From: a virus
IMG/VR virus record: IMGVR_UViG_3300005935_000023
Span: 1-49,729 of that record
DNA: 49,729 nt
Strand: one strand, 5' to 3'
The notes under the pieces are model-generated. The model was given only the letters and a program-made list of their open reading frames with translations, did not search any database and had not been told where the DNA came from. A program made the position numbers and the translations under genes. Below are positions 4,871 through 43,264 of the stretch, piece after piece. The stretch's first letter is position 1; each line of letters starts with the position of its first letter.

Positions 4871-4891
4871 AGTAAGTTAGAGACTATGATA

Positions 4892-4928: not shown

Positions 4929-4940
4929 AGGAGATTATAT

Positions 4941-5234
4941 ATGAATAAAATAGATGCTCTTGAACAACAAGGAAAATTTATAAAAGCGGAAGCTCTTAGA
5001 AAGATAAAAGCTGGACGTAAACCCGGGCGGCCTAAAAAAATAGCAGACGGGGATACCATAACAGATTTTATTATTCTTAAAATAAGAGAGGATATTTCGG
5101 AACTCTTAACTGAGCACAACCTTCCAACTGCGATCTTTTATATTGAAAAGATGATTGAAACACCTTTATCGACATTACGTAAAGCGTTGAAATCTTCTAT
5201 TCAAGAAGTGGTTGATAAAGTTGTAAACAAATAA
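4941..5234 (+). CDS. Small helical tail-region protein A
   Basis: This 97-residue protein starts after a TAGGAG ribosome site. It contains an AT-hook-like patch, RKPGRPKKI (about residues 27-35), which could bind DNA or another acidic partner. The rest is predicted helix. Its N-terminus (IDALEQQGKFIKAEALRKIKA) has the same pattern as the next gene's (ISMLEEEGQYVLADQFRALTA), pointing to a shared N-terminal element. It lies between sheath and tube genes, so a tail-assembly role is likely; the exact function is unknown. Confidence 0.6.
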   Translation: MNKIDALEQQGKFIKAEALRKIKAGRKPGRPKKIADGDTITDFIILKIREDISELLTEHNLPTAIFYIEKMIETPLSTLRKALKSSIQEVVDKVVNK

Positions 5235-5246
5235 GGTGGTGATGTT

Positions 5247-5705
5247 ATGGATAGACAGGAATTAGTAATTAGTATGTTGGAAGAAGAAGGACAATACGTT
5301 TTAGCTGACCAGTTCCGGGCCTTAACAGCAGATAAAGCTACCAGACGAAAAAGTAAAATTGAAGCCATAAATATCGCAGCTGATGTAAGAGACAAGCTAG
5401 AAAAGTTAGGTAAGAATTTATTGAGTTCAAAAGTTGGTGCAGGAATTATAGATATGGCAGAGCTATTGGACGCAGAGTTTGATAGATTAGAGGACAAAAT
5501 TGCTAAAATTCTAACAGAATATCTTGAATTTAAATCTAATAATCAGGAAGAAGAGCCGGTTACTCAACCTGAACCTTTTAATCCACCCGAAGAAGAAATC
5601 GAAGATGAAGAAGAAGTAGAGGATGTAGAGGATGTAGAGGATGTAGAGGTGGAAAAGATTAATCCTGAAGAAGAAACTGAAGAAGTAAAGACGGAGGAGG
5701 AGTAA
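5247..5705 (+). CDS. Small helical protein B with acidic tail
   Basis: This 152-residue protein shares the N-terminal LExxGxxxxAxxxRxLxA pattern with its upstream neighbour. The middle is helical. The last 45 residues are almost all Glu, Asp and Val, partly encoded by a nearly exact run of the 9-base unit GATGTAGAG (about 5618-5648). It starts after a GGTGGTG ribosome site and ends two bases before the tube gene. Acidic tails of this kind occur in chaperone-like or scaffold-like phage proteins. The role is inferred from position only. Confidence 0.6.
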   Translation: MDRQELVISMLEEEGQYVLADQFRALTADKATRRKSKIEAINIAADVRDKLEKLGKNLLSSKVGAGIIDMAELLDAEFDRLEDKIAKILTEYLEFKSNNQEEEPVTQPEPFNPPEEEIEDEEEVEDVEDVEDVEVEKINPEEETEEVKTEEE

Positions 5706-5707
5706 AA

Positions 5708-6298
5708 ATGGGTATAAATTTAACTGCTGGTCATATTAGTGCAGGATCACAGGGAACGTTTACCACAAAAGATTTACAAGGCAATTATGAAGTTCAAAGA
5801 CAAAATGATTGGTATTTTGAAGTTGAGCCTCCAAGTGGAGCTTTAAGTGACACAAAAAGAGTTATAACAGTTGCTTTAGATATAGGTTTCTTACCCAGTG
5901 AATCAAGTGAAGAAATTGAAATACATTTTGTGAATGAAAGAGTTTACGTTGCCGGCAAACCAATGTTTGAAGCTGGTACTTTGACATTAAAAGATTATGT
6001 TGATTATCCCGTCATGAAAACTATTGCCGACTGGAGAAAAGTAGTTTATAATCCACAAACAGGTCAAATTGGTCTGGCTAAGAACTATAAAGTAGATGCA
6101 AGTGTTGTACTGTTTGCACCTGATGGTTCTTATAGAAGAGAGTGGGTTTTAAGGGGTTGTTGGCCACAAGCTGTTAATTACGGAGCTACTTTAGATATGT
6201 CTACTATGGAACAGAATAAAATTGAAGTTACAATTCGATACGATAAAGCATGGGCTAAAGAGTTAGAGGGTAACGAAGGTAAAACTGTTCTAAATTAA
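5708..6298 (+). CDS. Tail tube protein
   Basis: This 196-residue protein follows the sheath by two small genes, the usual place for the inner tube subunit of a contractile tail. Its length and strand-rich sequence fit the tube family. The segment DYPVMKTIADWRKVVYNPQT, followed by a strand-turn-strand end where the RGCWPQAVNYG motif precedes LDMSTMEQNKIEVTIRYDKA, closely matches T4 gp19-like tubes. A GGAGGAG ribosome site overlaps the end of the previous gene. Its 3' end is partly duplicated at 6713-6775. Confidence 0.85.
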   Translation: MGINLTAGHISAGSQGTFTTKDLQGNYEVQRQNDWYFEVEPPSGALSDTKRVITVALDIGFLPSESSEEIEIHFVNERVYVAGKPMFEAGTLTLKDYVDYPVMKTIADWRKVVYNPQTGQIGLAKNYKVDASVVLFAPDGSYRREWVLRGCWPQAVNYGATLDMSTMEQNKIEVTIRYDKAWAKELEGNEGKTVLN

Positions 6299-6876
6299 AA
6301 GGAAATTAGAAAAATATGAAAACTGAAATTAAAGCTTTATATAAGAAGAATCCAAAATTAGCAAAAGAAGTTGCCAAAGTTCTTGGCTATAAGATTAAAG
6401 CAGTTGAAGCTGTAGAAATAGCTTTTAAAGATCTTCCTAAGCAGACTCTAAGCACTTTAAAACTTATGGGGTGGGCTCCTGGAGTAGTGGATAAGATTGT
6501 CAAAAGCGGACTTTATGGAATTCAAATTACCTCTAAGAAAAAAGGATTTTTAAGAAGTGAGGTATTAAGGTACTTAATGAAAGATCCAAATTTTGATGTA
6601 GCAGTAGCCGTAGGTCCAAGAACGTTAAGGTTAGACTTTTTATATCCGGATGAAGACTAAATAGAATTTTAAATATTTTCGGCAGAGATTTTTTTGAATA
6701 GTAAGATTGTTATAATTCGATACGTATGGGCTAAAGAGTTAGCAGGTAACAAAGGCAAAACTGTTCTAAATTAAAAGGAAATTAGAAAAATATGAAAACT
6801 GAAATTAAAGCTTTGTATAAGCAGAATCCAAAACTGGCTAAGGAAGTAGCCAAAGTTCTTGGCTATAAGATTAAAG
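6231..6876 (+). repeat. Direct duplication of tube-gene end plus tag-gene start
   Basis: Bases 6231-6400 and 6713-6876 are near-identical apart from a few substitutions and a deletion of about six bases. Each copy contains the last codons of the tube gene, its stop, the ribosome site and the first 28 or so codons of a tagged small gene. A second similarity, 6678-6708 against 7032-7065, covers the end of a tagged gene. The arrangement shows that a unit of about 480 bases was duplicated in tandem, after which the C-terminal parts diverged or were replaced. Confidence 0.85.
6316..6660 (+). CDS. Small tagged protein 2 (shared N-terminal module)
   Basis: This 114-residue protein opens with the common module (MKTEIKALYKKNPKLAKEVA, then KVLGYKIKA). 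The C-terminal part is unlike the other members: SKKKGFLRSEVLRYLMKDP and a strand-rich end with RTLRLDFLYP. It lies directly behind the tube gene, 17 bases downstream, with an AAGGAAATT ribosome site. The end is acidic. Function is unknown. The shared start and unrelated ends suggest a targeting tag attached to different cargoes. Confidence 0.7.
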   Translation: MKTEIKALYKKNPKLAKEVAKVLGYKIKAVEAVEIAFKDLPKQTLSTLKLMGWAPGVVDKIVKSGLYGIQITSKKKGFLRSEVLRYLMKDPNFDVAVAVGPRTLRLDFLYPDED

Positions 6877-7058
6877 TACAAGCTGGTTATAAAAATCAAA
6901 TTAAAGACCTGGTAACTGAAACTGTAGTAGGTGGTTTAACAGAAGATATAGAGTATGCAGATGAAGCAGAAGGAAAAACTGCTTTAAAGTACTTAAAAGA
7001 TTTAGTAAATAAACTTACAATGAATAGCGTTTTCGGTAGAGGTTTTTTTGAAGAATAG
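6792..7058 (+). CDS. Small tagged protein 3 (shared N-terminal module)
   Basis: This 88-residue protein has a module almost identical to that of the preceding tagged gene (MKTEIKALYKQNPKLAKEVA, then KVLGYKIKV), including at the DNA level and in the leader. This shows that the two arose by tandem duplication. Its C-terminal 55 residues are different: an acidic helix, a lysine-rich helix and the end FGRGFFEE. A relic of a similar end lies at 6678-6708, between the two genes. Function is unknown. Confidence 0.7.
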   Translation: MKTEIKALYKQNPKLAKEVAKVLGYKIKVQAGYKNQIKDLVTETVVGGLTEDIEYADEAEGKTALKYLKDLVNKLTMNSVFGRGFFEE

Positions 7059-7093
7059 TAAGATTAATAATAATACTATAATAAGGAGTAAAT

Positions 7094-7840
7094 ATGTTAG
7101 GAAATACTATTACATTACCATCAAAAGGTGTACTTTATCCTAATTTAAGTGGTGGAGAGGTAGAGGTTTTACCTATGAAAACAGGACAAGAAGAGCTGTT
7201 AGCTGGTCGTCCTGAAATGATTCCTATTCTTAATGCTTTGATTTTAAATTGCGTACCTAAAGTAAAAGCAATGGGTATGAGTCCTTTAGATTTGATTTCT
7301 GGTGACAGAATGTTTTTATTGTTCATGATTCGAAAATTTACTTATGGACCCACTTACGGATTTAAAATTAAGTGTCCAGGTTGTGGATTAACTTATAGGC
7401 AAGAAATTATTATTCCAGATAGTTTAGAGGTTACTGAATTAGAAGAGGGAGCAACAAGCCCTTTTGGAGTTAAGTTGTCTGACGATAAGACTGAAATTGG
7501 ATTTAAGCTTTTAAATGGACATGATGAAATAGAGATTGAACGATTTAGAAATCAGGCATTCAAGAAGGGTGTGCAACAAGGTGATCCTTCTTACACATAT
7601 ACGATTGCAAGACATATTGTTTCAATAGACGGTAAAGAAGTTACTCTTAAAGAAGCTTTAGACTATACACGAAAAATGGATGGAATGGATTCTCAAATTT
7701 TACAGGATGAAATTAAATATATAGAGCCCGGTCTTAGTAGAGACTTGGAACTGGAATGTGCTCAATGCGGTTATGATATTGAAACTGCATTACCTTTCAG
7801 CTCCGAGTTCTTTCGTCCCAAACTTAGAAGAAGGCCATAA
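7094..7840 (+). CDS. T4 gp26-like baseplate hub assembly protein
   Basis: This 248-residue protein starts LGNTITLPSKGVLYPNLSGG, the typical opening of the T4 baseplate/gp26-type family (LPSKG, then a strand and VLPMKTGQEELL). It carries a zinc ribbon split across the sequence: CPGC near residue 95 and CAQC near 228. It ends EFFRPKLRRRP, also typical. In phages with contractile tails such proteins act in hub or tail assembly and precede the tape measure, as here. The downstream small ORF overlaps its 3' end in the +1 frame. Confidence 0.75.
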   Translation: MLGNTITLPSKGVLYPNLSGGEVEVLPMKTGQEELLAGRPEMIPILNALILNCVPKVKAMGMSPLDLISGDRMFLLFMIRKFTYGPTYGFKIKCPGCGLTYRQEIIIPDSLEVTELEEGATSPFGVKLSDDKTEIGFKLLNGHDEIEIERFRNQAFKKGVQQGDPSYTYTIARHIVSIDGKEVTLKEALDYTRKMDGMDSQILQDEIKYIEPGLSRDLELECAQCGYDIETALPFSSEFFRPKLRRRP

Positions 7841-8000
7841 TATTTTAGAGCAAAAATTCCAGCTCTCTTATTGTGGATTAGGTGCATTACAGAGTTTAGA
7901 TGAAATGTACTCTCCCGATCGTCAATGGCATTATGCACGATTGGTAGAACAAAAACGTATAGAACAAGCGGAAGCGGACAAACAACAAAAGAAAGGTTAG
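7758..8000 (+). CDS. Overlapping small tail-assembly ORF (frameshift or coupled)
   Basis: The frame overlaps the end of the gp26-like gene in the +1 frame. The part that looks conserved, from about 7830, is ILEQKFQLSYCGLGALQSLD, then RQWHYARLVEQKRIEQAE. This pattern (RxWxxxRLxEQ) is typical of the small protein found between the gp26-like and tape-measure genes in related phages. The ATG at 7758 lacks a good ribosome site. Expression may come from +1 frameshifting or from re-initiation near 7830, where GAAGAAGG precedes an ATT. The exact start is therefore uncertain. Confidence 0.6.
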   Translation: MLNAVMILKLHYLSAPSSFVPNLEEGHNILEQKFQLSYCGLGALQSLDEMYSPDRQWHYARLVEQKRIEQAEADKQQKKG

Positions 8001-8024
8001 GAAGGAAGATTACTCTTCCTTCCT
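7999..8024 (+). promoter_or_regulatory. Hairpin ahead of tape-measure start
   Basis: AGGAAGGAAGA (7999-8009) and TCTTCCTTCCT (8014-8024) form a perfect 11-pair stem with a TTAC loop. It lies 13 bases before the tape-measure ATG, and the only ribosome-site-like sequence, GGAAGGA, is buried in the stem. No T-run follows, so it is less likely to be a terminator. It could limit translation of the tape measure. Confidence 0.55.
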
Positions 8025-8037
8025 TACACATAATTAG

Positions 8038-11000
8038 ATGGCAGATAGAAATCCAGCAGCTTTAAATATCGTAAATGCTTTACAAAGTTTACGTAAAACT
8101 GTATCTTCTTCAGGTGGTAGAGTGGATAAAACTGTTTCTACCGTTGCCAATTCTTTAGATGAATTAAATCAACTCTTTAAATCATCTCGAATGTTTAAAA
8201 AAACAACTGTAAAGTCTATGGCTACTTTTTTTAAACAAGCTCCTGCTCTTATAAACACTTTAAATAGTAATTTAAGTGGTCTTAACCAATCAACAGCTTT
8301 ATCAGGTTCGGATATAAAAAATCTTAACACTACATTACAAGAACAGCCTGCCTTCTTAGAAGATTTAACAGATCAATTAAATTCTTTTGGAACAGGTTTA
8401 GATGAAATGCAAGGTGGCCTTAAAGGTGTGGAGGTAAGTGCTCAACTTAACCCTGAAACACAGCGACAGTTTGCAGAAATGGAATCAGATTTAGGTAGTA
8501 TTCATTCCGAGATTCAAGATGTAATGAATGCTATTGCTTCTTCTGGTAATGTTACAGGAGGTGCAGCTCAAGAGGTGGGTAAGTTATCAGGTTCTATGTC
8601 CGATATGGTTAGACAGCTTTCTGTACTAACTAAGGGTGGTCAAATTAATGCAAAAACATATATGGAAATTACACGTAGAATTTCAACAGCGAATCAAAAA
8701 TTAAATCATACTCGAATAGATATGGGTAAATTAAACAAAGATTTAGAAAAAACCGTTGACTTGCAGGATGAAGCTGGTGATGGAATCAAAAAAGGTGTAG
8801 ACGCTTTGGTTATGATGGGAGCTTTCGACCTTTTTAAAGGTGTTCAAACAGGTGAAGCTGTTAATCAAATTTCTAGTTTAAATGATGAATTAATTGAATT
8901 TAAAAGACTTACCGGGAGTTCTAATGAAGACTTAAAAGTTTGGCAAGACTCAGCTATTAGTACTGCAAAGATCCTCAATAAATTAGGTGTAGCTGCAGAC
9001 CCAGCAGAAATTGCTGATTTATATAACATTATTCGAAAAACAGGCATAAGAGGTGCTGAAGATATAAAAGCTTTATCATTTACAGTAAAACAATTATCCG
9101 ATGCAACTAATATCAGTAAAGAAGAAGTTGCAGATTTTGCACAAACAGTAACTAAAAGATGGGGTGGATCTATTAGAACTGTTGGTCTGTTAAGTAGTGC
9201 TTTTATTGCATTACAGCGAACTACAGGTGCTTCAGCAAAAGAACTTATGGATAAAACACAAGAATTAGGTAAGACGTTTACCTTAACAATGTCTCGTTTA
9301 AGTAAGCGGGGTAAAGAAACATTTGCTGTAGATTTAGCTGCTGCAGCTGGTGCATTTAAAGATATTGGATTAGATAGTACTGCCTTGTTAGAAGATATGA
9401 ATTTAGCTCTAACAGAACCTGGAGAAGCGGCTAAAAAGTTTGGTCACATATTACAAGGTACTGGATACACAATCCAGCAAATGGCTAAAGATTTAGAAAA
9501 AGGTAATATTGATAATGCTATGAAAGCCATAGCTATAGGTACAAAAAAATATGCCAATATGTCAACTGTACAGTTAGGTATTATTGCACAAACATATGGT
9601 AACAATATAGAAGACTTAGCGCTGCTATCCCAAAAGGGTGGTAAATTTTTCGACATCTATATTAAATCTATACAAGCAGGGACTAAAGAATTTGCTAATA
9701 GCCAAGGTGCTTTAGCAGAAGCAGCTAAAGTAGAAAATGAAAAAATAGGAAATTTATTTGAACGTGTAGGTAAGCGGATAAAGACCTGGATAGCCGGTAG
9801 TAGTGTTAAAGCAATGAAAGGCTTTGGAGTGAATTTATTAGAGTTAGCTCCTAAACTTGCACTTCTAGTAATTGTTGCAGATAAAATGGGTTTAAGAATG
9901 GATTTTCTAGCTAAAGGAATGAAAAAAGCCGGAGGAATGGTTTTAGGCTATGTAGGAAATCTATTAGGTTTAACCACAGCTTCTGCTGGAGCTACTGCTG
10001 CTACAGGAACTGCTACAGTAGCTACCACTACTTTCGGAACAGCTTTATCCGCAGCAATATGGCCTGTAACTGCTATTGTTGTGGCTATTGCCGGTTTATG
10101 GGCGCTATTTAAATATGGCCCTACTTTAATGGATAAATTAGCTAAAAGGTTTCCTCAATGGGAGGAAGGCTTTATGGCCATTAAAGATGGACTTTTATAC
10201 GTAAAACAAGCATTTATAAATATGTGGAAAACAATAGAACCTTATATGAAGGCTTTTGGTAAAGTGTGGTGGAGTGTTGTTGTTCTACAATTTAAGGTTG
10301 GTTGGAGTATCATTAAAACTGTAGGTATTGGCTTAATTACGACTTTTAAAATGGTCTGGGCTATTGCAGGACCTATTCTTATAGCTTTTGCAAAAGGTAT
10401 CAAATATCTTTGGAGTATATTAGCAGAATCCGAAGGTATTCAAAAAACAAAAGAAATGTTTCAAGGTTGGTTAACAGGTGCTAAAGCATTTATGAATATA
10501 CTACCTCAAATTTCCCAGAGTATTACTAATTTTTTCTCTTGGGTTCAAGAAAAGTTAAGTACTGCAGGTGAGTTTTGGTCTCAAATCGATTTAGCTAAAC
10601 CTTTTAGGGTTGTTTATAATGTACTTGGTGATGTTATCAAACAATTAAATAAATTTTTAAGATTGGGTTCTAAGGTACAAGAGATAGGTGGCTTTGTCAA
10701 GAAATTTGGTTCCGAAAAAATACAGAAGGTAGGTGGCTTTGTCAAGAAGTTATGGCCTTTTGGACGAGATAAAGAGGCAGCATCAGGGATGCTGCCGCCA
10801 ATTACACAAATTCAAAAACTCGCAGAGACTCAAGGCACTATTTCTGCAATACCTGGTATAAGTCAAGGCAGTAAAGTTATTTCTCCAGAACCAGGTCAGA
10901 AGATTTTTGCTGAATCTCCAAATGTTGTTTTGAATCCTAAGTCAGATATTGATGTACATCAAGAGGATGTAGTTGCTGCCATTAAAACATTAACAAATAC

Positions 11001-16358: not shown

Positions 16359-17282
16359 ATGCCATATTTAGTGACGGCACTTATAAAAAAATGTCGAAAA
16401 GAGGACAGTAAACCAGGTCGGGCTTGGTGTGCATATAAACCTGTTAAAGAAGGTTCTATGAAAGAAACAATTCCACAACCAAAAGGTTGGCCAAAAACAT
16501 ATGAAACGAAAGATAAAGCAGAACGTGGGGTACAGATGATGAAGACGTTTGGTGGTGCAGGTATTCAAGCAGGTTGGTTTGTAGATATTTTATTACCTAC
16601 AGTATATGCTTGTTATGTTAAAAATCCAAAAATTATTGACAGCAAAAGAAGATTACTAAGCAAGGTAAATGCACAGGTACGTACTTTTTTAAGAACTTAT
16701 CCTGAAGAGTTTTCTACTATTCAATATTGGTGTAAAAAATTTCATGCACTCAAAACGCAAGCAAACGTTTTACGTGCAATTAATAAAGAATTACGTGAAA
16801 ATGATTTTGTACAACAAGCTAAAATTGTAGCTTCTATATATAGAAAAATAAATGCTCAAGGAACTTATGCAATTCTTAAAGCATATTACGGCAAAAATAA
16901 AACAGAAACAGCATTAGCTGGCTTGTTTACAAGTCCTATGGGCTATCAAGGACCAGGCCAAGTTGGAATTGAAAATATTGAAAATATTGAAACAGTTCCT
17001 ATAAACCAACCTATGATGGAAGAAAATGTAGAGCAACCTATGATGGAAGAAAATGTAGAACAACCTGAAGATGTAATAGAACAAACGGGTCCTAACTTTT
17101 TATGTCCTTCATGTCAGTTAAAATTAATACAACATTTAGCAACTTGTCCTTTCTGTGGACAAAATCCTTTGCAGAATTTAGAACAACCAGCTACTGAAGA
17201 AGAGATACAGGTTTTTGAACAACTACAAGCCTTTTTAGATGTTAAAGGCAACAGCAAACAGAGTCGAGTAATTAAACCCTAA
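16359..17282 (+). CDS. Zinc-ribbon protein upstream of terminase
   Basis: This 307-residue protein starts with a basic region (KCRKEDSKPGRAWCAYKPVK) and a GWPKTYETKDKAERGVQMM motif that I have seen in phage hypothetical proteins. Residues about 223-240 hold an exact duplicated unit, QPMMEENVE. The C-terminus carries a zinc ribbon, CPSC near residue 248 and CPFCG near 262. The stop overlaps the terminase start by one base (TAATG). Position suggests a packaging or head role, possibly small-terminase-like, but no such motif is visible. Confidence 0.6.
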   Translation: MPYLVTALIKKCRKEDSKPGRAWCAYKPVKEGSMKETIPQPKGWPKTYETKDKAERGVQMMKTFGGAGIQAGWFVDILLPTVYACYVKNPKIIDSKRRLLSKVNAQVRTFLRTYPEEFSTIQYWCKKFHALKTQANVLRAINKELRENDFVQQAKIVASIYRKINAQGTYAILKAYYGKNKTETALAGLFTSPMGYQGPGQVGIENIENIETVPINQPMMEENVEQPMMEENVEQPEDVIEQTGPNFLCPSCQLKLIQHLATCPFCGQNPLQNLEQPATEEEIQVFEQLQAFLDVKGNSKQSRVIKP

Positions 17283-20200
17283 TGGAATATACAAGTAATG
17301 ATTTTGAAAAATTTCTTCGAGGTGAAGAGAATGCTATTGATGAAGAAGATCAAATAGATCTTACAAAGACCTCTGGAGATAATTATGACCCTTTTGCGTT
17401 AATTAAGCGAGCAATAGATAGTGATTTTGATAGTTCTGTTTTTGAGCGTATTGATGATTCTGATCTTCCTTTAGCTTATAATTGGTTAGATTTTTGTGTT
17501 AATAGTAGATATTTAAACATCAAACCTTTTCCAACACAAATTAAATTTGGTCTGCAGTTTTTTGCAGATTATTGTCCTGACTGTTCAGACCCAGGAGTAG
17601 TAGATAATTTATTTGATGAGTCTTTACAGGAAATACTTGATAGAGTGCAGACCTTACACCATGGAGTGTGTCCTAAATGTAAACGCACACGGTTAGATTT
17701 TGCAAAAGAAGGTAAATTACATTATTACAATGAGTTAGCTGGGTGTGCAGGACAACGGGCCGGGAAGTGTCTAGCGTATGACACTATAATTTTAACAGAA
17801 GATGGTGTTATGCAGATAGGAGAATATTGTAAGAAAAGTTTTTCTGTAGGTTTTAATGAAATTAATTTAAATATACATAACGGAAATAAATTAACACCTG
17901 CTAAGTATTTTTATAAAACAGATAAATCTCCTGTTTACCGTGTAGAGTTAAAAAGTGGAGCTTTTATTAAAGGCAAAGATTCCCATCCTATAAAAACTTT
18001 TTACGGGTTTCAATTATTAAAAGATTTAAAAAAAGGTACTCCTATAAAGGTAGATTATGGTCAAAATGTATGGGGGAATAAAATACCTATTTTTGATACA
18101 AAGACAATAAGAGTAGAAGGTGATTTAACCACAAAAGAAATTCCTCTTCTTATTAGACAGGCCCCTAAGATTTTTGTTACTGAATTTCTTAAATCTTTGT
18201 TTGAAGGTGATGGAGGAATGGAAGCAAACAAAGTAGTTTCCTATTGCACTATATCGGAAAAGCTAATTACGCAGTTATCTGGTATTTTACTTAATTTAGG
18301 TATTCCTCATAAGTTAATTAGAGGTTACGCATTAGCTACTAATGGTACAGAAAAACAAGTTCCTAGACGATACTACAGTATTTATATTGGAGGTAAGTAT
18401 TTAGAAGTATTTCAAAAAGAGATAGGTTTTATTTCAAAGAGAAAAAAGAAAGCACTTGAAAAGGCAGTTGAAACACATAGAAATCGTCAGAAAAAAAATC
18501 CTTTATATTATGATAAGTTACCCGATGTAATTAAAGTAGAATTCCTTAAATTAATTTCCGAAATAAAGAAAGAATTACATGTGTACTGGTCCGGTTCTAC
18601 GGACCGTTATGGATTTTTAACGTTGGTGAATTATTCAAAAGTTTTTGGTGTATTAAACAGAGACAATGTTTGTTTAACTAAACAAAAGATACAGTTTTTG
18701 GTGAATTGTGTAGAAGCATCAAAATATAAAAAAAGATTATCTAATAGTACACATCAGAAATTACGGTATTTTGAATCATTTTGTGAAGAAAATTCTTATT
18801 GGACGTATGTAAAAAATATTGAGAAATTAGAAGAAGAAGAATTATATGATTTTAACATTCCGGATAAACACCAGTTTTGGACAAATGGAATTATTTCACA
18901 CAACTCTGTGTGGGTTTCTATGACAGCATGCTACCAACTACATAGATTTTTAAAAATTCCTAATCCAAGTCACTATTTTAGTGTGTTAAAAAACCAAACT
19001 CTACATATGACTTTTGTTGCTATTTCATATGTACAGGCTCAAGATACTTTATGGCAGCCTTTCAGAGATTTTTATGATGATTCGCCTTGGTTTAAAAATT
19101 ATAATGCTATGTTGGATAGTTATGGAGCACAGTTTGGAGTACCTCTTTATTCAAAGAAGGATACATTTCTTTGGTATGATCATAAAAGACTTACATGTTA
19201 TGCAAGCGGACCTGATAAAAGAAAATTAAGAGGGCGGACTAGATTTTTTTGTTCCGTAGATGAGTTAGGTTGGTTTCATGGAACAGATAAAGCCATGAAG
19301 TTAAATCCTGATGAGGTATGTAAAGCTTTGGAGCGTTCTTTAAGAACGGTAAGAAGTGCTTCTGAAAAAAGAAGAGAGATTTTAAATGAAAGCCATACTC
19401 CAGATGGTTTATTTGTTAACATTAGCAGTCCAAGTGCAGCTAATGATAAAATTATGAGATTGATAAGAGATACAAGTATTCCAGGTCGTTACTTTTTTCA
19501 TTTACCCACCTGGGAAATGAATCCTAATATTACGAGAAAAAGTTTAGATGCTGAATATAAAGATGACCCAGTTGCAGCAGAAAGAGATTACGGAGCTAAT
19601 CCACCTTTAAGTGATTCACCTTTTATTAGTAATCCAGAATTAGTACACACACTTATACAAAACATTTATAAAAATCAGTGTAAGTATACCGTGCAGGCTC
19701 AGGTAGATAAAGCAGGCTATACAACACTTAGAGTAGCAAAATTAAAATTAGGTGAATTTGATCCTTCAATTAATTATGTGTTAGGAGTAGATACAGGACA
19801 TACAAAAAATGCTTTTGCATTAGTTCTACAACATTATGATTCTACACAAAAAACTGCAATAATCGATTTAATGATAGAGGTAAGACCTATTGAGGAAGCT
19901 TCAGTACATTTTCCAAGTATATTTGAAAAAGTTATGTTACCTGTTATAGCAGCAGCAAATATAGCGTTAGTTGTTTTTGATACATGGAATACCATTAATT
20001 ATGAACAAGAGCTGCATAACATTGGAATTGACTCATTAAGGTATTCTCTAAAAATAGGTGACTTTAGTACAATTCGCGGATTAATTCTTAGTAAGAAAAT
20101 AATTATTCCTAAACCTGAAATTAAATTTGAAGAGATAGTGGATCCAAGTCAAGATTATAATCAATTAATTGCACGTAAACCGGTTTCTCATTTTATTTAC

Positions 20201-20476
20201 CAGATATTAACTGTAAGAGATCGGGGTAATTCTATTACAAAAGGTTTAGGTGTCGATGATGATATATTTAGAGCTTGGTGTTTAGGAGCTAAATTCTTAT
20301 ATGACCTTAAGTGGGAAAAAATATTTCAATCTCCCTCAGGTGGTAAAAAGAAAAAGAAATCTTTAGGAACTGTTTTTCAAAAAGCTTCTGGCGCATTTTT
20401 AAGTGCAGGTGGTGCGATGGTGAAAACACATGCTGGAGGCCCTTTAGGAACTGTAAGAAAGAAAACTAAATTATAA
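17282..20476 (+). CDS. Terminase large subunit with an intein
   Basis: The 1064-residue precursor contains a 379-residue intein (residues 163-541). Removing it gives a 685-residue terminase. The extein has a split Walker A, AGQRAGK before the intein and SVWVSMTA after it, a Walker B-like FFCSVDELGWF near residue 658, and an RNase H-type nuclease start VLGVDTGHTKNAF near 834, followed by acidic FDTWN. A zinc knuckle (CPDC and CPKC) precedes Walker A. The enzyme drives DNA into the prohead with ATP and cuts concatemers. Without splicing, the ATP site is broken. Confidence 0.92.
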   Translation: MEYTSNDFEKFLRGEENAIDEEDQIDLTKTSGDNYDPFALIKRAIDSDFDSSVFERIDDSDLPLAYNWLDFCVNSRYLNIKPFPTQIKFGLQFFADYCPDCSDPGVVDNLFDESLQEILDRVQTLHHGVCPKCKRTRLDFAKEGKLHYYNELAGCAGQRAGKCLAYDTIILTEDGVMQIGEYCKKSFSVGFNEINLNIHNGNKLTPAKYFYKTDKSPVYRVELKSGAFIKGKDSHPIKTFYGFQLLKDLKKGTPIKVDYGQNVWGNKIPIFDTKTIRVEGDLTTKEIPLLIRQAPKIFVTEFLKSLFEGDGGMEANKVVSYCTISEKLITQLSGILLNLGIPHKLIRGYALATNGTEKQVPRRYYSIYIGGKYLEVFQKEIGFISKRKKKALEKAVETHRNRQKKNPLYYDKLPDVIKVEFLKLISEIKKELHVYWSGSTDRYGFLTLVNYSKVFGVLNRDNVCLTKQKIQFLVNCVEASKYKKRLSNSTHQKLRYFESFCEENSYWTYVKNIEKLEEEELYDFNIPDKHQFWTNGIISHNSVWVSMTACYQLHRFLKIPNPSHYFSVLKNQTLHMTFVAISYVQAQDTLWQPFRDFYDDSPWFKNYNAMLDSYGAQFGVPLYSKKDTFLWYDHKRLTCYASGPDKRKLRGRTRFFCSVDELGWFHGTDKAMKLNPDEVCKALERSLRTVRSASEKRREILNESHTPDGLFVNISSPSAANDKIMRLIRDTSIPGRYFFHLPTWEMNPNITRKSLDAEYKDDPVAAERDYGANPPLSDSPFISNPELVHTLIQNIYKNQCKYTVQAQVDKAGYTTLRVAKLKLGEFDPSINYVLGVDTGHTKNAFALVLQHYDSTQKTAIIDLMIEVRPIEEASVHFPSIFEKVMLPVIAAANIALVVFDTWNTINYEQELHNIGIDSLRYSLKIGDFSTIRGLILSKKIIIPKPEIKFEEIVDPSQDYNQLIARKPVSHFIYQILTVRDRGNSITKGLGVDDDIFRAWCLGAKFLYDLKWEKIFQSPSGGKKKKKSLGTVFQKASGAFLSAGGAMVKTHAGGPLGTVRKKTKL
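17768..18904 (+). other. Intein in terminase Walker A motif
   Basis: It begins at Cys (CLAYDTIILTEDGV) and ends NGIISHN before Ser, so both splice junctions are standard. It is 379 residues long. FLKSLFEGDGG is one clear LAGLIDADG-type endonuclease motif; I see no equally clear second one, so endonuclease activity is uncertain. The B-block position reads KDSH rather than the usual TxxH. Insertion lies between Lys and Ser of the ATP-binding loop, the least deletable spot in the gene. Confidence 0.92.
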
Positions 20477-20860: not shown

Positions 20861-23800
20861 ATGCCTTTTTTTAAATTTGATCGACACACCCAGGGGAGTT
20901 TTGGGGGTCAATTTCGAAATACTAATCCTGTGTACACAAAAGCGTCAGCTGGTAGTTTTGGCTCCAACTATAACCTTAATAGGTTTAACACAAACACCGA
21001 TGATTTAACTAGAGATTCCGTAATTGAGGAATGGCTACCTAAAACACCTCAATTAATGAATAAATTATATCGAACTATCCACCAATATGATAGTGTGGCA
21101 GGCCCTGCCGTAGATTTAATTTCTATTATGCCTTTTAGTGACGTAACACTTATTGGTGTTGATGATCCAAAAATACTTCGAATTTACGAACAGTCTATTG
21201 AAGAATTACATTTAACTACTCTTTTACCTGAAATAGCTTCAGAGTATTTAATTATAGGTAGAGTAATTGGAAGTCTGCTTTTCGATAAAACCAAAGGCAT
21301 TTGGACTGACATTATAATTCAGGATCCGGATTATTGTGAGGTTACTAATATTCCTTTAAGAGGCTTTGATCCAAAAGTAGATTTAAGAGTTTCTAATGAA
21401 TTTAGAGAGTTTTTATTAAGTAAGGATCCAAGAGACGCAGCAGCTCGTAAGGATATACCTGAAGAGCTGTTACAGGTATTATTAAAAAAGGATATAATTC
21501 CTCTGGACCCTATAAGTACACTCTATTTACCAAGACAGACTTATCCAGCTAACTATTTAGGTTCTTCAATTTACTGTAGAATTTTACCGTTTTGGGCTTT
21601 AGAAAAAACTCTTTTTAATGGGACACTAATTGGTGCAAAAAGAAGACAGAGATCAATTTTGCATGCAACAGTTGGAGAAACAGATATTTGGGAACCAGAT
21701 GAAGAAGATATTTCAACCATCGCCGGCATGTTTATGCAGGCTGATGAGGATCCACAAGGAGCCATTGTAGCTACCCGACATGGAGTTGAAGTAAATGAAG
21801 TACGTTCTGGATCGGACTTTTGGAAGATTTCAGATGAATGGGACTTCTTATCTACATCAAAAATGAGAGCGCTGGGAATCAATGAATCCTTTCTCTGCCT
21901 TGCTGGAGATACTTTAATAACTACAGAATATGGTTTACAGCGTATTGATCAGATGAAAAATTCAGATGAAGTACCAGTACAATCCATATCCACTAAAGTT
22001 CTTTCAAAAAATAATAAAGAAGGTACCGCTATAAAATGGATTTATAGAGGTGAGGCTGAAGTTCAGGAAACTTTAACGGATAATGGAAGGTTATTCAAAA
22101 CCACTAAAGAACATAAAGTATTAGTTTTGGATAGAGGTACGGGAGTACTTCAATGGAAAGAGGTGGTTAATTTAGAGGTGGGTGATAGTCTTTGTATTAG
22201 CACTCAACCTTACATTAGAAAAACACAACTTAAACTTAATTTACCTGCTCTAAAACCTAAAAAACATGCAACCTGTACTAAGGAATTAAAAATACCTCAA
22301 TATATGACTCCCGAATTAGCTTATTTGTTGGGGTTGCTTGTTTCAGAAGGCTGTTTTAATTCAAACAGAATTTCTTTTTCTAATTCTAGAGTTGAACTTT
22401 TGGATGAGTATATACGATTGATGTTAGATTTATTTAATTTAAAAGTATTTAAAACATTAATTTCAAAAAAAGGAGATGTATGTACTATTAAAGGTATCTC
22501 ATCTGTATGTAAGGTAGACACCTACAGTATAAGTACAGATAGTATAGTACTTACAAGTTGGCTAGATTATTTAGGTTTACACAGAGGTTTTGTTAATGGT
22601 AAATACCCTTCTTATTTTAAAACGGTTCCGTGGAGTATTTTACAAGCTGATGGGGAGGCCCAACTTGCATATTTAGCTGCATATTTAGAAGGGGATGGTA
22701 CTATTCCTATAGATGGCAAAGGAATTTCTTTTATATCGGTTTCTAGAACTAATTTAAGAATGATGCAAACTCTTCTTACTTCGCATGGTATTTTAGGTAG
22801 AGTATTAGCTAACTATCCGGTTTTATCACTGGATACAAAGTCTTCGCTTAATCTTTACGGTAAGCTAGCAAAGTATTTAGTCAGTAAGCAAGCTGTAATA
22901 GAGGTTGAGAAGAAACATGTAAACGGCACCTATGGTGGTCGAAAATTTGGTTTACCTCTAGAAGGTCTTCGAATATTTTTAAGAACTAGAAAACAACAAG
23001 GTACGGGTTTAGGTACATGGTTTCTTAACGATAATGGAGAGACTATTTTTATTGAAAAATGGGGTGTGCTAGATAAGAGTGAGAGATGGCAGCGGCTTTT
23101 ATACGATTCTTATCGACGGGGTGCCTACACCGGTTTTCTAGAGGCACTTAAAAAGATATCTATAATAATGCATGCGAATATAATTAATTTACTAGAGTTA
23201 GAATATTTTTACGACAGTGTGGTAAAACTGCAGGAAGGCAGAAAACAATCTGTCTATGATTTAACCATGAGTGTTAAAGATAAGCCAGCCTTTATAGCTA
23301 ATGGAGCTGTTGTACACAATAGTGGGGATGCTACCTACAATTGCCTAGTCGGAAAGAAAACAATAGTTTACACAGACCGTGGGCTGTTATATTTAGATGA
23401 AATAATGAAGGATGAAAAAGTTGAAGGTGATGTAGAGGGCCCAAATGCAGGTAAAGCTATAGATGTAGATCTAACAGTAGCTTCAAGGTACAAAGCGGAA
23501 AAAGCAGCTAAATGGATGTATAGTGGCTATACAGATACTGTAAGAACAGTTACTAAGTCGGGTCATGAAACCGAAAGTACATATGAACATCCGTTCTTAG
23601 TATTCAATGAAGATAATTATGAAGTAAACTGGAAATTAGCTGCAGATGTTCAGAAAGGAGATCTACTCTGTTTAGCTACGAAAAAATCAGTGACTCGAAA
23701 AGATAGATTGGAGTTAAATTTATCTGAAAGTCATTTTTCGAGGAAAGAAATTAAAAAGCCTAAATATATGACTCCAGAACTTGCTTACATTTTAGGTTGC

Positions 23801-26800
23801 CTTATTAGTGAAGGAACTCTAACAGATAGTAGTTTTTGCTTTTATAATAGTGACCAAGCCTTTATAGATAAGTATACCAAGTGTGTTAAAGAAGTGTTTA
23901 ATTTAGATTACAGTGCACGGCATAATGGACCTCCAGCAGGTGCTGAGGTTACAATTAAAGGCAACTTAGCAACTATTAATACAGATTCTTATGCTATCAT
24001 CTCCCACTCCACAAGGGTACGTAAATGGTTCGATGAGTTGGGGCTTTATACAGGTGGAAATAAAAACGGAAAATCAGCTTCCTACTACAAAGTTATTCCC
24101 TGGTGTATTTTACAAGCAGATGAAGAAAGTCAGTTTGCGTTTTTAGCTGCATATTTAGAAGGAGATGGTTCAATAGGACGTTATATTAGTTATTTTTCCA
24201 GAAGCGAAAAGCTGTTAAAACAGCTTCAAGCTATTTTAGGATCACAGGGAATATTTGCATATAAAGCTAAGTACGCTCTTGTTCTTTCTGGAGTAGATTC
24301 CTTTAATTTATGGCCGAAAATAAAAGCTTACATGGTAACTAAGGCTTTAAGTTCAGCTGGTTACAAGGCTAGGAATAAGTTTGGCTTTTCTAACAAATAT
24401 TTAAAAGACTTTATAGCAGGTAGAAGAATTGGAATTACTAGTTACTATATTAATGATCAAGGGGAAAAAATACAGCTGCAACATTGGGGAAATTCTTATG
24501 ATAAGAGATTTCTGTACGATAAATATGATAGGGGAGAATATAATCGTTTTTTAGAGAATTTAAAAGAAATATCTACAGTGGAGTATCAAAAATTATCTGA
24601 GCTTTTTAACTGTAGATATAGATTTTCGCCTGTAGTGCTTAAAGAGGATTGTGGAAAGCAACATGTGTATGATATTTCTATGGAAAAAGGTATTGAACCC
24701 GCCTTTATCGCTAATGGTTTAGTGGTGCATAATTGCCAAATAGGAGAATCTTTAATTCCAACTGAAAAAGGCCTCTTAAGAATTGATGAAATAGCCGAAG
24801 GAAAAGAAGGAGAGATAAAAGATATAGATTTAACAGTTGGTTCCAGATATGGTGGTGAAAAAGCTGTTAAGTGGTTAAATAATGGTGTAGCAGACACGTT
24901 AAAAGTTACAGATAGAATGGGTTATTCTTTATGCTGTACTCCAAAACACGGTCTTTTAGTTTTAAGGGAGAATGAATTAGTTTGGATAGAAACAAAGGAA
25001 TTAATAGTAGGTGATATTGTATGTATTTCTACAAAACCGCTTGTACGTAGTACACCCTTAAAATTAAATTTGAATAATCTTGTAAGTTTAGGTAGAAGAC
25101 CTCGTAAAGATATTCGTAAACCGGAATATATGACACCGGAATTAGCTTTTATCCTTAGCTGTCTTGTTAGTGAAGGTTCCATAACTAAAACGGATGTTAA
25201 AATTTATAACAGTAATGAGGATCTTATAAAGAGATATTCGGAGTGTGTTGAAAAGGTATTTGGGTTAAAAACTTTACAAAGAATTAATACTCCAAAAGGA
25301 GCTCGTAGAGAGGTTAGAGGTAAAGAAATATTTGCCACTAAAAATTGTTACGAAGTATTTGTATGCAGCCGAACATTAGTTGATTGGTTGTGTGTTTTAG
25401 GTCTGGGGGGTAAAGGAACAATTGCTCGAGATAAAGTAGTACCCTGGTGTATTCTGCAAGCTGATGAACAGTGTCAACTAGCCTTTTTAGCGGCTTATAT
25501 TGAATGTGATGATGGTGTAGATTCAAAAAGAGGTACTATTTGTTTTCATTCAGTTAGTAAAATGATACGATCTCAGATTCAAGCGTTATTAAATACACAT
25601 GGTATTATATCTTATAACGATAATAAAATAACTGTAGCAGTTCACCCTATTGCTGCATACCCTTTATGGAAAAAAATAGAGTCTTATATGGTAACAAAAC
25701 ATATTGACTATATTCCAAAAGCAACTGCAATACAAAAAGGCTACGGTATTCCAACAAAATATTTAAAGGAATTCTTAAAAGGACGTAAAGTTAAGTCCAG
25801 TCAAAAAGGTATTATATTTTTAAATGATACCGGTGAAGAAGTTGTGTTTAAAAATATTTCTAGGTGGTTTAATATACCAAATAGATTATTATATGATAGA
25901 CATAAAAAAGAAGGCTATTCAATATTTTTAAACGCTTTTAAGCAGATATCAGAATTAGAGTATGCTAAGTTAATAAAACTTTTTGAAACGGGTTTTTATT
26001 TTTCAGAATTAGTGAGTATCGTTGATAGTGGTAAACAACCTGTATATGATCTTTCCATGAAAAAGGGTGCTGAGCCTGCCTACAATAGTCAATGTTTTCA
26101 AACACATAATACGATGGAAATTGCGCTTTCTGTTTTCGTTGAATCACTTCGTAATTTTCGAGATAATCTTGTAAGTAGAATTTTTTATGAAAAGCTTTTT
26201 CCTACGTTGGCAAAAATACATGGCTTTAAAAGACGATCTCAAGCGGAATTAGCTCACGGTATTCGAATAGGTGGTAAAACTATAGATAGTGATTTAATTA
26301 TGCCGCAGATTAGTTTCCATAAACAATTACGACCTGAAGCTGATTCTAGCTACTTAGAAGTTTTAGGTACAATGGAAGAGAAAGGTATTCCAATTCCTCT
26401 ACGTACGTGGGCTGCAGCTGGTGGCTTAAATTTAGATACAGTTTTTGAGATGAAAGATGAAGATATTGTCAATAGAAAATACACTAAAGAGTGGAAAGAA
26501 GAGCTTAAAAATAATGGTGGAGATGATAATAACGAAGAAGAAGGTGCCTGGGGTGCAGTACACGCGGATCTTAAAACTATTAAGAACACCTTAGATGTGC
26601 TGCCAATTTGGCTTGGAGGTAAGTTTTTAGGTATTAAGAAGGAAGTTTTTGCTACCATTTTAAAATCAAAAAATCCAAAAAGTAGATTGACTGCAAAGTT
26701 TAAGAATGAACCTAAAAAAATAGAAATTGCCAGTTACGTATTGAAAAGAATGGGTGTACAAAATGTACCTTTTGATTTAAGTGTTACTAGAGATATTGCA

Positions 26801-26971
26801 TTTCATTTAAAACAGTGTATTGGAGTTTTTTCACGAAGACGTGTTACAAATGAATTTATCGCCTTAAATAAAATGATAAAAGCGTGCAGCAGTGAAAAAG
26901 AACACCGACCTGCAAAACAGTTACCTAAGTTTGAAACAGATACAAATCTGTACTCAGGTGTTAAAAAATAA
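20861..26971 (+). CDS. Portal protein with three inteins
   Basis: The 2036-residue precursor holds three inteins totalling 1398 residues. The joined extein is 638 residues, normal for a portal. The extein reads MRALGINESFL, then SGDATYN, then TMEIALSVFVESL, a conserved portal segment interrupted twice within seven residues. The N-terminal part has DSVAGPAVDLISIMP, as in other portals, and the C-terminus is basic. The portal ring sits at one head vertex and threads DNA. Three splicing events are needed per subunit, and the ring has about twelve subunits, so splicing efficiency could limit head output. A GGGGG-type ribosome site precedes the start. Confidence 0.9.
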   Translation: MPFFKFDRHTQGSFGGQFRNTNPVYTKASAGSFGSNYNLNRFNTNTDDLTRDSVIEEWLPKTPQLMNKLYRTIHQYDSVAGPAVDLISIMPFSDVTLIGVDDPKILRIYEQSIEELHLTTLLPEIASEYLIIGRVIGSLLFDKTKGIWTDIIIQDPDYCEVTNIPLRGFDPKVDLRVSNEFREFLLSKDPRDAAARKDIPEELLQVLLKKDIIPLDPISTLYLPRQTYPANYLGSSIYCRILPFWALEKTLFNGTLIGAKRRQRSILHATVGETDIWEPDEEDISTIAGMFMQADEDPQGAIVATRHGVEVNEVRSGSDFWKISDEWDFLSTSKMRALGINESFLCLAGDTLITTEYGLQRIDQMKNSDEVPVQSISTKVLSKNNKEGTAIKWIYRGEAEVQETLTDNGRLFKTTKEHKVLVLDRGTGVLQWKEVVNLEVGDSLCISTQPYIRKTQLKLNLPALKPKKHATCTKELKIPQYMTPELAYLLGLLVSEGCFNSNRISFSNSRVELLDEYIRLMLDLFNLKVFKTLISKKGDVCTIKGISSVCKVDTYSISTDSIVLTSWLDYLGLHRGFVNGKYPSYFKTVPWSILQADGEAQLAYLAAYLEGDGTIPIDGKGISFISVSRTNLRMMQTLLTSHGILGRVLANYPVLSLDTKSSLNLYGKLAKYLVSKQAVIEVEKKHVNGTYGGRKFGLPLEGLRIFLRTRKQQGTGLGTWFLNDNGETIFIEKWGVLDKSERWQRLLYDSYRRGAYTGFLEALKKISIIMHANIINLLELEYFYDSVVKLQEGRKQSVYDLTMSVKDKPAFIANGAVVHNSGDATYNCLVGKKTIVYTDRGLLYLDEIMKDEKVEGDVEGPNAGKAIDVDLTVASRYKAEKAAKWMYSGYTDTVRTVTKSGHETESTYEHPFLVFNEDNYEVNWKLAADVQKGDLLCLATKKSVTRKDRLELNLSESHFSRKEIKKPKYMTPELAYILGCLISEGTLTDSSFCFYNSDQAFIDKYTKCVKEVFNLDYSARHNGPPAGAEVTIKGNLATINTDSYAIISHSTRVRKWFDELGLYTGGNKNGKSASYYKVIPWCILQADEESQFAFLAAYLEGDGSIGRYISYFSRSEKLLKQLQAILGSQGIFAYKAKYALVLSGVDSFNLWPKIKAYMVTKALSSAGYKARNKFGFSNKYLKDFIAGRRIGITSYYINDQGEKIQLQHWGNSYDKRFLYDKYDRGEYNRFLENLKEISTVEYQKLSELFNCRYRFSPVVLKEDCGKQHVYDISMEKGIEPAFIANGLVVHNCQIGESLIPTEKGLLRIDEIAEGKEGEIKDIDLTVGSRYGGEKAVKWLNNGVADTLKVTDRMGYSLCCTPKHGLLVLRENELVWIETKELIVGDIVCISTKPLVRSTPLKLNLNNLVSLGRRPRKDIRKPEYMTPELAFILSCLVSEGSITKTDVKIYNSNEDLIKRYSECVEKVFGLKTLQRINTPKGARREVRGKEIFATKNCYEVFVCSRTLVDWLCVLGLGGKGTIARDKVVPWCILQADEQCQLAFLAAYIECDDGVDSKRGTICFHSVSKMIRSQIQALLNTHGIISYNDNKITVAVHPIAAYPLWKKIESYMVTKHIDYIPKATAIQKGYGIPTKYLKEFLKGRKVKSSQKGIIFLNDTGEEVVFKNISRWFNIPNRLLYDRHKKEGYSIFLNAFKQISELEYAKLIKLFETGFYFSELVSIVDSGKQPVYDLSMKKGAEPAYNSQCFQTHNTMEIALSVFVESLRNFRDNLVSRIFYEKLFPTLAKIHGFKRRSQAELAHGIRIGGKTIDSDLIMPQISFHKQLRPEADSSYLEVLGTMEEKGIPIPLRTWAAAGGLNLDTVFEMKDEDIVNRKYTKEWKEELKNNGGDDNNEEEGAWGAVHADLKTIKNTLDVLPIWLGGKFLGIKKEVFATILKSKNPKSRLTAKFKNEPKKIEIASYVLKRMGVQNVPFDLSVTRDIAFHLKQCIGVFSRRRVTNEFIALNKMIKACSSEKEHRPAKQLPKFETDTNLYSGVKK
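21896..23320 (+). other. Portal intein 1
   Basis: It is 475 residues long, from CLAGDTLITTEYGLQRIDQM to AIANG-type end (AFIANGAVVHN) before Ser. Block B is TKEH. Two endonuclease motifs are clear: LAYLLGLLVSEG and YLAAYLEGDG. It is closely related to portal inteins 2 and 3: all share MTPELA followed by the first motif, and an ILQAD segment before the second. This points to duplication within the gene. Confidence 0.93.
23342..24733 (+). other. Portal intein 2
   Basis: It is 464 residues long, from CLVGKKTIVYTDRGLLYLDE to AFIANGLVVHN. It begins seven residues (SGDATYN) after intein 1. Block B is TYEH. Endonuclease motifs are LAYILGCLISEG and FLAAYLEGDG. The residue after its terminal Asn is the first Cys of intein 3, so its +1 nucleophile is supplied by another intein. 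Confidence 0.93.
24734..26110 (+). other. Portal intein 3, abutting intein 2
   Basis: It is 459 residues long, from CQIGESLIPTEKGLLRIDE to CFQTHN before Thr. There is no extein residue between it and intein 2. Block B is TPKH. The first endonuclease motif is LAFILSCLVSEG. The second is altered, FLAAYIECDDG in place of FLAAYLEGDG, so cutting may be weakened. The C-terminal block (AYNSQCFQTHN) also differs from inteins 1 and 2. Confidence 0.92.
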
Positions 26972-40097: not shown

Positions 40098-42029
40098 ATG
40101 CAAATATCCCACGAAGTACCCTTATGTATGCTGGAAGCTAGCCGTTTCTTTAACAATTATGATTATGCACTTGTACATATGTTTGAAAAATATCCAGAAT
40201 ATTATCAATTTTTCAAAAAAAGCCTTGTAATGGGCCGTAATGTTATATTAGATAATTGTCTTAGTTATTTCTCTAAAATAACATTAGCAGATGGTTCAAA
40301 AAAACTTCTCGGTACAATTGTTAAAAATAAATTACCCGTTGAGGTTTTAACACTTAATTTAGAAACGGGTCAATACGAAACTAAAAAGGTATTAAATTGG
40401 TTTGAGGGTACAGATCAAGAAATAAATTGGTTTAAAGTAATTGTAACATCTGCTAAACATAATAGAAAAAAAGGGATAGTTGGAACAGTATGTACTGAAG
40501 ATCATAAATTTTGGGTGGTTAATAAAGGTATGGTAAGATGTAAAAATTTAAAAGAAGAAGATCATCTACTTTTTAATGAAATTCAATTTACAGATGTCCA
40601 ACAACAATTAATATTAGGTAGTTTTTTAGGGGATGGAAGTGTTGCAGTTAATTCATGTGAAAGAGGTATTTTCACATGTTGCCATTCCGATAAGCAAATA
40701 AAATATTTAAATCTTAAAAGAAAAATTCTTCAAAATTATCTTATTAAAGCTTATAATTGTGCAAATAATACTAGAGGTTTTAATACAAGAAAAGATGCTA
40801 AATTAGAGTGTTTACGTACTAAGAATTTAATTCAGATTCCAAAATTATTTATAGAAATTAACCAAGACGCTAATTGGATTCGTATTAGAGAAAAATATGG
40901 TGTGAAGAGTTTTAAAAAGAAGTACAGTTGTATTATTCCAAAACTTTCTTATTTAGGTTTAGCTTTTTGGTATATGGATGATGGAAATTATAATAATAAT
41001 GATAGATCTCCAATAAGCATCTTTAGTCTTTCACCGGAAGCTTTAGAAGAAAAGCAAGCTATTATTCAAATTTTAAAAAATGTTTTTGATTTAGATGGTA
41101 AAATATATAGTTATGGAAAGAATAATACAGATGTGCGTTTAGGTTTAAGTGTTGCAAGTACAAAAAAAATGCATAGTTATATTGCACAATTTTTGCCTGT
41201 TTCTATGCAATATAAATTACACCCTGCTTTTAGGAATTCTAATACTTTTTGGGACCATTATAATTTTTTGAATTCAAATAAACCAATAGAGGTGCAGATT
41301 TCTAAATTAGAAAAATTAGGTAAACGTAGAAAAAAGTATGACATTACTGTAGAAGATAATCATAATTATTTTGCTAATGATATATTGGTATCAAATAGCG
41401 TTTTCGAACTTGAGAAAGCTTTTGATGCAGATGCTTTCGCAAATGTGGTATTAAATCTCCAACCAACTCATTATATTATTCCAGATGTGTTGGAAGATGC
41501 AGAAGCTACAATGAAAAATTGTGAAAATTGGTTCAAAACTTATGATAGGTTTCCTAGTAAATCAATAGGTGTTGTTCAAGGAGATAGTTATAGATCTATT
41601 GTGGAGTGTTATCAATATATGCAAGCTAAGGTGGATAAGGTTGCAATTAGTTTTGATTACAGTTATTACTGTGAATTATATCCACATGAAAATAAACTCG
41701 TTAGTTGGATGAATGGTAGAATTCTACTACTTAACAGGTTAATTCAGGATGGTATTTTAAACATAAATAGATTAAAACCTTTGCATTTGTTGGGTATTGC
41801 TCTTCCGCAAGAGCTTATTTATTATAAGAATATGCCTTTTATTGAAACGATTGACACAAGCAATCCAATCGTTGCTGCTTTAAAAGGAATAGAGTATAAA
41901 GATTGGGGGCTGTTAGCTAAAGAGAAAGTAAAGTTAGTGGATCTTTTTGAAACACCTATAGAAAAGATAAATACAAGTCTTGTATTGCATAATGTTGCAC
42001 AATTTAAAAAATTCGCAGAAAATAAATAA
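40098..42029 (+). CDS. DpdA-like TGT (7-deazaguanine transglycosylase) with an intein
   Basis: The 643-residue precursor holds a 380-residue intein. The 263-residue extein reads GRNVILDN, then SVFELEKAFDADAF, with IIPDVLEDAEAT and PSKSIGVVQGDSYRSIVECY, and later PFIETIDTSNPIVAALKGI. This matches the TGT-like DpdA proteins of phages, which swap guanine in DNA for a 7-deazaguanine. The intein splits the ILDNS active-site loop. An AAGGAGATAC ribosome site precedes it. The QueF gene lies about 1.2 kb downstream, which supports a DNA-modification role over a tRNA one. Confidence 0.78.
   Translation: MQISHEVPLCMLEASRFFNNYDYALVHMFEKYPEYYQFFKKSLVMGRNVILDNCLSYFSKITLADGSKKLLGTIVKNKLPVEVLTLNLETGQYETKKVLNWFEGTDQEINWFKVIVTSAKHNRKKGIVGTVCTEDHKFWVVNKGMVRCKNLKEEDHLLFNEIQFTDVQQQLILGSFLGDGSVAVNSCERGIFTCCHSDKQIKYLNLKRKILQNYLIKAYNCANNTRGFNTRKDAKLECLRTKNLIQIPKLFIEINQDANWIRIREKYGVKSFKKKYSCIIPKLSYLGLAFWYMDDGNYNNNDRSPISIFSLSPEALEEKQAIIQILKNVFDLDGKIYSYGKNNTDVRLGLSVASTKKMHSYIAQFLPVSMQYKLHPAFRNSNTFWDHYNFLNSNKPIEVQISKLEKLGKRRKKYDITVEDNHNYFANDILVSNSVFELEKAFDADAFANVVLNLQPTHYIIPDVLEDAEATMKNCENWFKTYDRFPSKSIGVVQGDSYRSIVECYQYMQAKVDKVAISFDYSYYCELYPHENKLVSWMNGRILLLNRLIQDGILNINRLKPLHLLGIALPQELIYYKNMPFIETIDTSNPIVAALKGIEYKDWGLLAKEKVKLVDLFETPIEKINTSLVLHNVAQFKKFAENK
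40257..41396 (+). other. Intein in the DpdA-like active-site loop
   Basis: It is 380 residues long, from CLSYFSKITLADGSKKLLGT to ANDILVSN before Ser. Block B is TEDH. Endonuclease motifs are clear: LILGSFLGDGSVA and LGLAFWYMDDGN, so homing is possible. The residue before the terminal Asn is Ser, not the usual His, so splicing may be slower. It is not closely similar to the portal inteins. Confidence 0.9.
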
Positions 42030-42737: not shown

Positions 42738-43264
42738 TTATTGCTTTAACGGGCACACATTCTACGGGCAAGTCTTCTCTTGTAACTAATTTGCAGAAAG
42801 ATCCTTTCTTTAAAGATTATCATTTTTCAGATAATACTACACGAAACCTACGAAGTCGTGGTATGTCTATTAACGAACAGGGGACCACTGCTACACAACT
42901 GTGTACTATAAACAGTCATGTAGAAAATATTTTTCGATATTATAAGAACGCTTTAGTCTGTAGGTGTGCATTAGACGCTTTGTGTTATACAGAATATTTA
43001 TATAGACGACGTAAGGTAGAAGAATGGGTATATGATTATGCACGTAATGTGTTTAAGTTTTTACTTCCAAATTATGCTTTTATATTTTATTTGGAACCGG
43101 AATTTGGAATACAAGATGATGGTGTTCGAAGTGTAAGTAGAGAATTTCAATACGACATAATGAATATTTTTAGATGCAATATTCAAAGATATAATATAAA
43201 CGTCATAAAAATAGGGGGCACAATTGAAGAACGATGTCAACAAATACTAACGACAATCAAATAA
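42734..43264 (+). CDS. NadR/AAA_28-like P-loop kinase, second copy
   Basis: This 176-residue protein has a Walker A, MIIALTGTHSTGKSSLV, and otherwise follows the pattern of the minus-strand kinase at 33218-33835. The ATG overlaps the upstream stop (ATGA) and the end overlaps the HNH-QueF gene by 31 bases, so the set is likely translated together. The substrate may be a nucleotide or NAD precursor; in this neighbourhood a role in base-modification metabolism is possible but unproven. Confidence 0.68.
   Translation: MIIALTGTHSTGKSSLVTNLQKDPFFKDYHFSDNTTRNLRSRGMSINEQGTTATQLCTINSHVENIFRYYKNALVCRCALDALCYTEYLYRRRKVEEWVYDYARNVFKFLLPNYAFIFYLEPEFGIQDDGVRSVSREFQYDIMNIFRCNIQRYNINVIKIGGTIEERCQQILTTIK

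Follow-up and report, generated by a model that had tools for sequence, protein, structure and literature searches.

The portal gene of a phage described as large carries three LAGLIDADG inteins (here I1, I2 and I3), of which the second and third stand head to tail in one insertion site with no extein residue between them. The IMG/VR virus record that contains the gene is 49,729 bases long and is referred to below, as a whole, as the window. From the sequence, the motifs and the intact extein, I2 and I3 are likely to be two separate inteins of the same site, each able to excise itself, that were brought together from two alleles at an Asn codon.

The open reading frame at positions 20861-26971 is a single frame of 2036 aa and encodes a portal precursor, evident by its match to the jumbo-phage-type portal family PHROG 16240 (E 2e-125) and by its neighbors, which are terminase, protease and capsid genes. 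Within it, Pfam Intein_splicing was matched in 3 stretches (4e-33) and LAGLIDADG_3 in 4 stretches (2e-33). All features given here for this gene are on the plus strand. By the PHROG 16240 match and alignment to intein-free portals, the N-extein of 345 aa spans 20861..21895; the 7-aa spacer SGDATYN between I1 and I2 (23321..23341) is ungapped in the same alignment, and the C-extein, which starts with TMEIALS and includes the stop codon, spans 26111..26971 by the boundary call together with this alignment. Removal of all three inteins leaves a portal of 638 aa. Compared to the intein-free portals of PaBG, Erwinia Y3, Vibrio GR7B and Rhizobium phages, the spliced extein showed zero gaps at either insertion site, with the stretch GINESFL SGDATYN TMEIALSVF aligned throughout.

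Intein ends were placed at residues 346 and 820, 828 and 1291, and 1292 and 1750 of the reading frame with profiles of the N- and C-terminal splicing domains, the window inteins being among the seeds of these profiles. I1 (475 aa, 21896..23320) interrupts site a, FL/S, where a slash marks the splice point; I2 (464 aa, 23342..24733) follows TYN at site b; and I3 (459 aa, 24734..26110) abuts I2 at the same site. Each begins with Cys1, which is invariant across an alignment of 34 rows, and each contains the block B T..H motif (TKEH, TYEH and TPKH, respectively), the block F Asp and the motif VYDLTM, VYDISM or VYDLSM in the same order. The block G His-Asn is followed by a Cys, Ser or Thr at the +1 position in all three, as VVHN/S in I1, VVHN/C (later T) in I2 and THN/T in I3, and I1 and I2 follow the full block G consensus. 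Two LAGLIDADG motifs with acidic residues were found in each intein, SEG and LEGDG in I1 and I2, and SEG and ECDDG in I3. A Hint fold is supported by the Intein_splicing matches and, for I3, by the structural model, which matched the homing-endonuclease inteins TliVMA, PhoVMA and PI-PfuI (closest solved structure, TliVMA 7qss; E 1.5e-24). AlphaFold models of I2 and I3 had mean pLDDT values of 90.9 and 91.5, respectively, with the C-terminal strands included. Altogether, the profiles, boundaries and motifs agree with the initial annotation that three related inteins lie in this gene, and all three should be standard class 1-type homing-endonuclease inteins. We infer that they splice, for which the integrity of the extein is indirect support.

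The I2/I3 junction lies at 24733/24734 and reads GTG GTG CAT AAT / TGC CAA ATA GGA (V V H N / C Q I G). Asn464 of I2 thus directly precedes Cys1 of I3, in frame and with 0 codons between, and both inteins occupy one insertion site, SGDATYN/T. The abutment is as the initial annotation had placed it, to the base, and the junction sequence likewise agrees with its reading that the +1 residue of I2 is Cys1 of I3 until I3 has been excised and Thr afterwards.

Splicing at this junction could proceed by more than one route. I2 and I3 would each excise themselves using their own Cys1, T..H motif, block F Asp and terminal His-Asn, and Cys1 of I3 would take two roles, as the N-terminal nucleophile of I3 and as the +1 nucleophile of I2. 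If I2 spliced first, it would use Cys1 of I3 as its +1 residue and join SGDATYN to it, leaving I3 intact; if I3 spliced first, I2 would regain the +1 Thr that is native to site b. I2 ends in Asn, as does the extein TYN, so I3 would have Asn at its -1 position in either order, and all routes would yield the same 638-aa portal. A splicing order built into the gene, as had been proposed, does not follow from this arrangement, since both orders converge on SGDATYN-TMEIALS and neither would be forced; the kinetics could vary between them. The peptide bond between Asn464 of I2 and Cys1 of I3 would be attacked by both inteins, and it might be cleaved prematurely as a side reaction.

To place the three inteins, a tree of 34 rows was built from the window inteins and those of relatives. 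A split of 88/93 separated I1, which lay with the inteins that other phages carry at site a, at site d and in terminases, from I2 and I3, which lay with those of site b and site c and the FTFN inteins. A single clade of the three window inteins was marginally rejected (AU p 0.0445). Intragenic triplication, the origin put forward initially, is unlikely because of this grouping and this test. The motifs MTPELA, ILQAD and LAAYLEGDG, which had been taken as its sign, are common to a wide phage intein family that also interrupts terminases and a polyA-polymerase-like gene in other phages; therefore, they do not indicate duplication here. In the best tree I2 joined the site-b intein of L174 (78/89) and I3 the FTFN inteins (59/85), both weakly, and the single site-b inteins (L111, L112, L121 and L174) did not form one clade, with site b requiring 4 changes in the tree. 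Different inteins thus appear to invade site b. At the DNA level, I2 ends in CATAAT and the extein before the site reads TACAAT, with AAT in common as a microhomology of only 3 nt. Because the site-b inteins are not one clade and the two sequences share the joining Asn codon, we favor a joining of two site-b alleles, one with I2 and one with I3, at AAT as the most likely origin of the pair. Either microhomology-mediated recombination or microhomology-mediated end joining would have made the join, with an endonuclease cut during a mixed infection as a possible trigger. In Haloferax, microhomology-mediated end joining after cuts by intein endonucleases has been described (PMC10643990).

Tandem duplication, in which one site-b intein was doubled head to tail, with later divergence of the two copies, would leave splicing as described above, and we regard it as a serious contender, though clearly the less probable one. 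I2 and I3 share their site, and in BLAST each ranks among the best matches of the other (300 bits); their sisterhood survived the AU test (p 0.40 in the 34-row tree and 0.26 in another AU test), so that it is neither supported nor rejected, and the terminase of L189, with two inteins that are 50% identical and 10 aa apart, illustrates that nearby related pairs occur. Against this, identity between I2 and I3 is only 38%, and they are scarcely nearer each other than either is to the site-c intein of L091 (296 and 290 bits), and the best tree, if weakly, separates them. An assembly chimera, in which two alleles of the intein from a mixed population were placed in series, is very unlikely. The contig is metagenomic, site b holds different inteins in different phages, and a search of IMG/VR for a second copy of the I2/I3 junction found none; yet AAT alone is common to both sides of the junction, far below any assembly k-mer, and the join is in frame and coincides exactly with both splice junctions. 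Protein identity among I1, I2 and I3 is 34-38%, and their DNA matches are short, the best being 73-79 nt at 73-81% identity, so that misassembly driven by repeats is unlikely.

Other alternatives concern the state of I3, which shows signs of wear. Its second LAGLIDADG motif, LAAYIECDDG (25487..25516), keeps the catalytic-type Asp, but the next Gly, present in 31 of 33 relatives, is replaced by Asp. Position 2 of I3 is Gln. Block G, usually of the type A-F-[IV]-A-N-G-x-V-V-H-N, reads AYNSQCFQTHN in I3 (26078..26110) and scored -4.9, compared to 25.8 to 40.7 in 25 relatives. A +1/-1 indel pair would explain the departure from AYIVNGFQTHN; random controls equaled its score in 16% and its gain in 3% of trials, and the compensating pair is only suggestive. 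With block G far below that of all relatives compared, I3 may splice poorly. These deviations would fit an I3 that is decaying or dead for splicing, the pair being removed, if at all, as a unit by the N-terminal chemistry of I2 and the C-terminal chemistry of I3, or the genome being a defective variant. We consider this unlikely, as the portal is presumably essential, I3 retains Cys1, TxxH, Asp, THN and the +1 Thr, and its structure is predicted with confidence to the last residues; moreover, THN is a functional ending of efficient inteins, gp41-1 among them (PMC12245125), and domain-swapped excision would require a half-exchange between two Hint folds of the divergence given above. More unlikely still is that the pair forms one compound element through the shared Cys, such that clean splicing of I2 depends on prior action of I3 or that the N-terminal chemistry of I2 and the C-terminal chemistry of I3 remove both at once; if true, a worn intein could persist behind an active one.

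The end of I3 (26078-26110) also holds CCTACAATA, which recurs around the insertion site once the extein halves are joined (ACCTACAAT followed by ACG). The match may have arisen by chance or may record template switching. The possibility that the end of I3 contains a captured or repeated stretch was also considered, and no second copy was found within the window.

Searches of viral contigs returned many portals without inteins and several with them, and a search of genome contigs returned distant inteins only. Sites a, b and c are all free of inteins in L010, the nearest relative of this portal (82% over residues 3-316). The portal and terminase inteins of relatives (L046, L002, L178, L034, L091, L110, L111, L112 and L174) belong to the same family and share with the window the hot spot RALGINESFLSGDATYNTMEIALSVF, but they stand one to a site, with zero abutting pairs. 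Site a (FL/S) is occupied in L002, L046, L116, L176, L178, L181 and L186 as well as by I1 of the window; site b (ATYN/T) holds the four single inteins named above, always with +1 Thr; site c (SGDA/T) is occupied in L034, L046, L091 and L110; and site d (R/S), about 29 residues upstream of site a, in L010, L184 and L185. Across all loci compared, a spacing of 0 residues between neighboring inteins occurred in the window only, followed by 4 in the L046 portal, 5 in the L046 terminase, 7 between I1 and I2 of the window, 10 in L189 and then at least 30.

Several of these relatives carry more than one intein in a gene. The L178 portal (reading frame from 3924) has three inteins in three sites, two of them mini-inteins. 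In L046, the terminase (reading frame from 247) has three, the first two separated by 5 residues, and the portal on the same contig has two, separated by 4; the L189 pair lies in the terminase reading frame at 3830-9208. Two scans of IMG/VR for the abutment signature HN/C[FLIMV]xGDT gave no true second case, this being a signature that also misses CQIGES of the window itself. L161 and L165, the two matches in which intein sequence follows the junction, were rejected as abutting pairs, each being a single intein behind an extein that ends in HN; the other matches look like chance.

Because an intein splits the endonuclease target, a site that already holds one is normally regarded as closed to further invasion. 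The window, with two clearly different inteins in series at one site, suggests that occupied sites can be stacked. It also offers a natural test of whether one residue can be both the +1 nucleophile of one intein and Cys1 of the next, and of whether splicing order matters, and a possible template for engineered serial inteins.

The initial annotation had called such abutment rarely if ever described, and no description of directly abutting inteins was found in the open-access literature searched; the novelty is therefore provisional. In the multi-intein genes known (haloarchaeal MCM and polB, Thermococcus Pol, P. abyssi CDC21 and mycobacterial DnaB), several homing-endonuclease inteins or mini-inteins interrupt an essential gene and each splices independently, as envisaged for the window, but the stated spacings are large and none was found at zero distance or sharing one site. 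The MCM intein sites are separate (PMC10643990), and spacings of 85 and 48 residues are stated for known pairs (PMC8966425), 48 being the closest stated in the open literature searched. Inteins in portals are already known from mycobacteriophages (PORT inteins), as in the window, and adjacent or tandem pairs go unmentioned in the passages that list them (PMC5050341). TliVMA (PDB 7qss and 7qsu), the closest solved fold to I3, likewise combines a Hint domain with a LAGLIDADG endonuclease but is a single intein in its site; it is reported to cut an alternative site near the homing site while the latter is occupied (PMC8966425). Several inteins per gene are thus familiar, and it is their stacking at zero distance in one insertion site that seems, provisionally, undescribed.

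Intein-like and endonuclease-like sequences also occur elsewhere in the window. The terminase large subunit gene (17282-20476) contains a further intein of 379 aa at 17768-18904 (GQRAGK/C...SHN/S), and a reading frame of PHROG 19058, a family of unknown function, at 40098-42029 contains a fifth intein-like insert with Intein_splicing and LAGLIDADG_2 matches and the end ILVSN/S. At 43234-44760, a QueF-like (7-cyano-7-deazaguanine reductase) reading frame matches an HNH endonuclease family in its N-terminal part.
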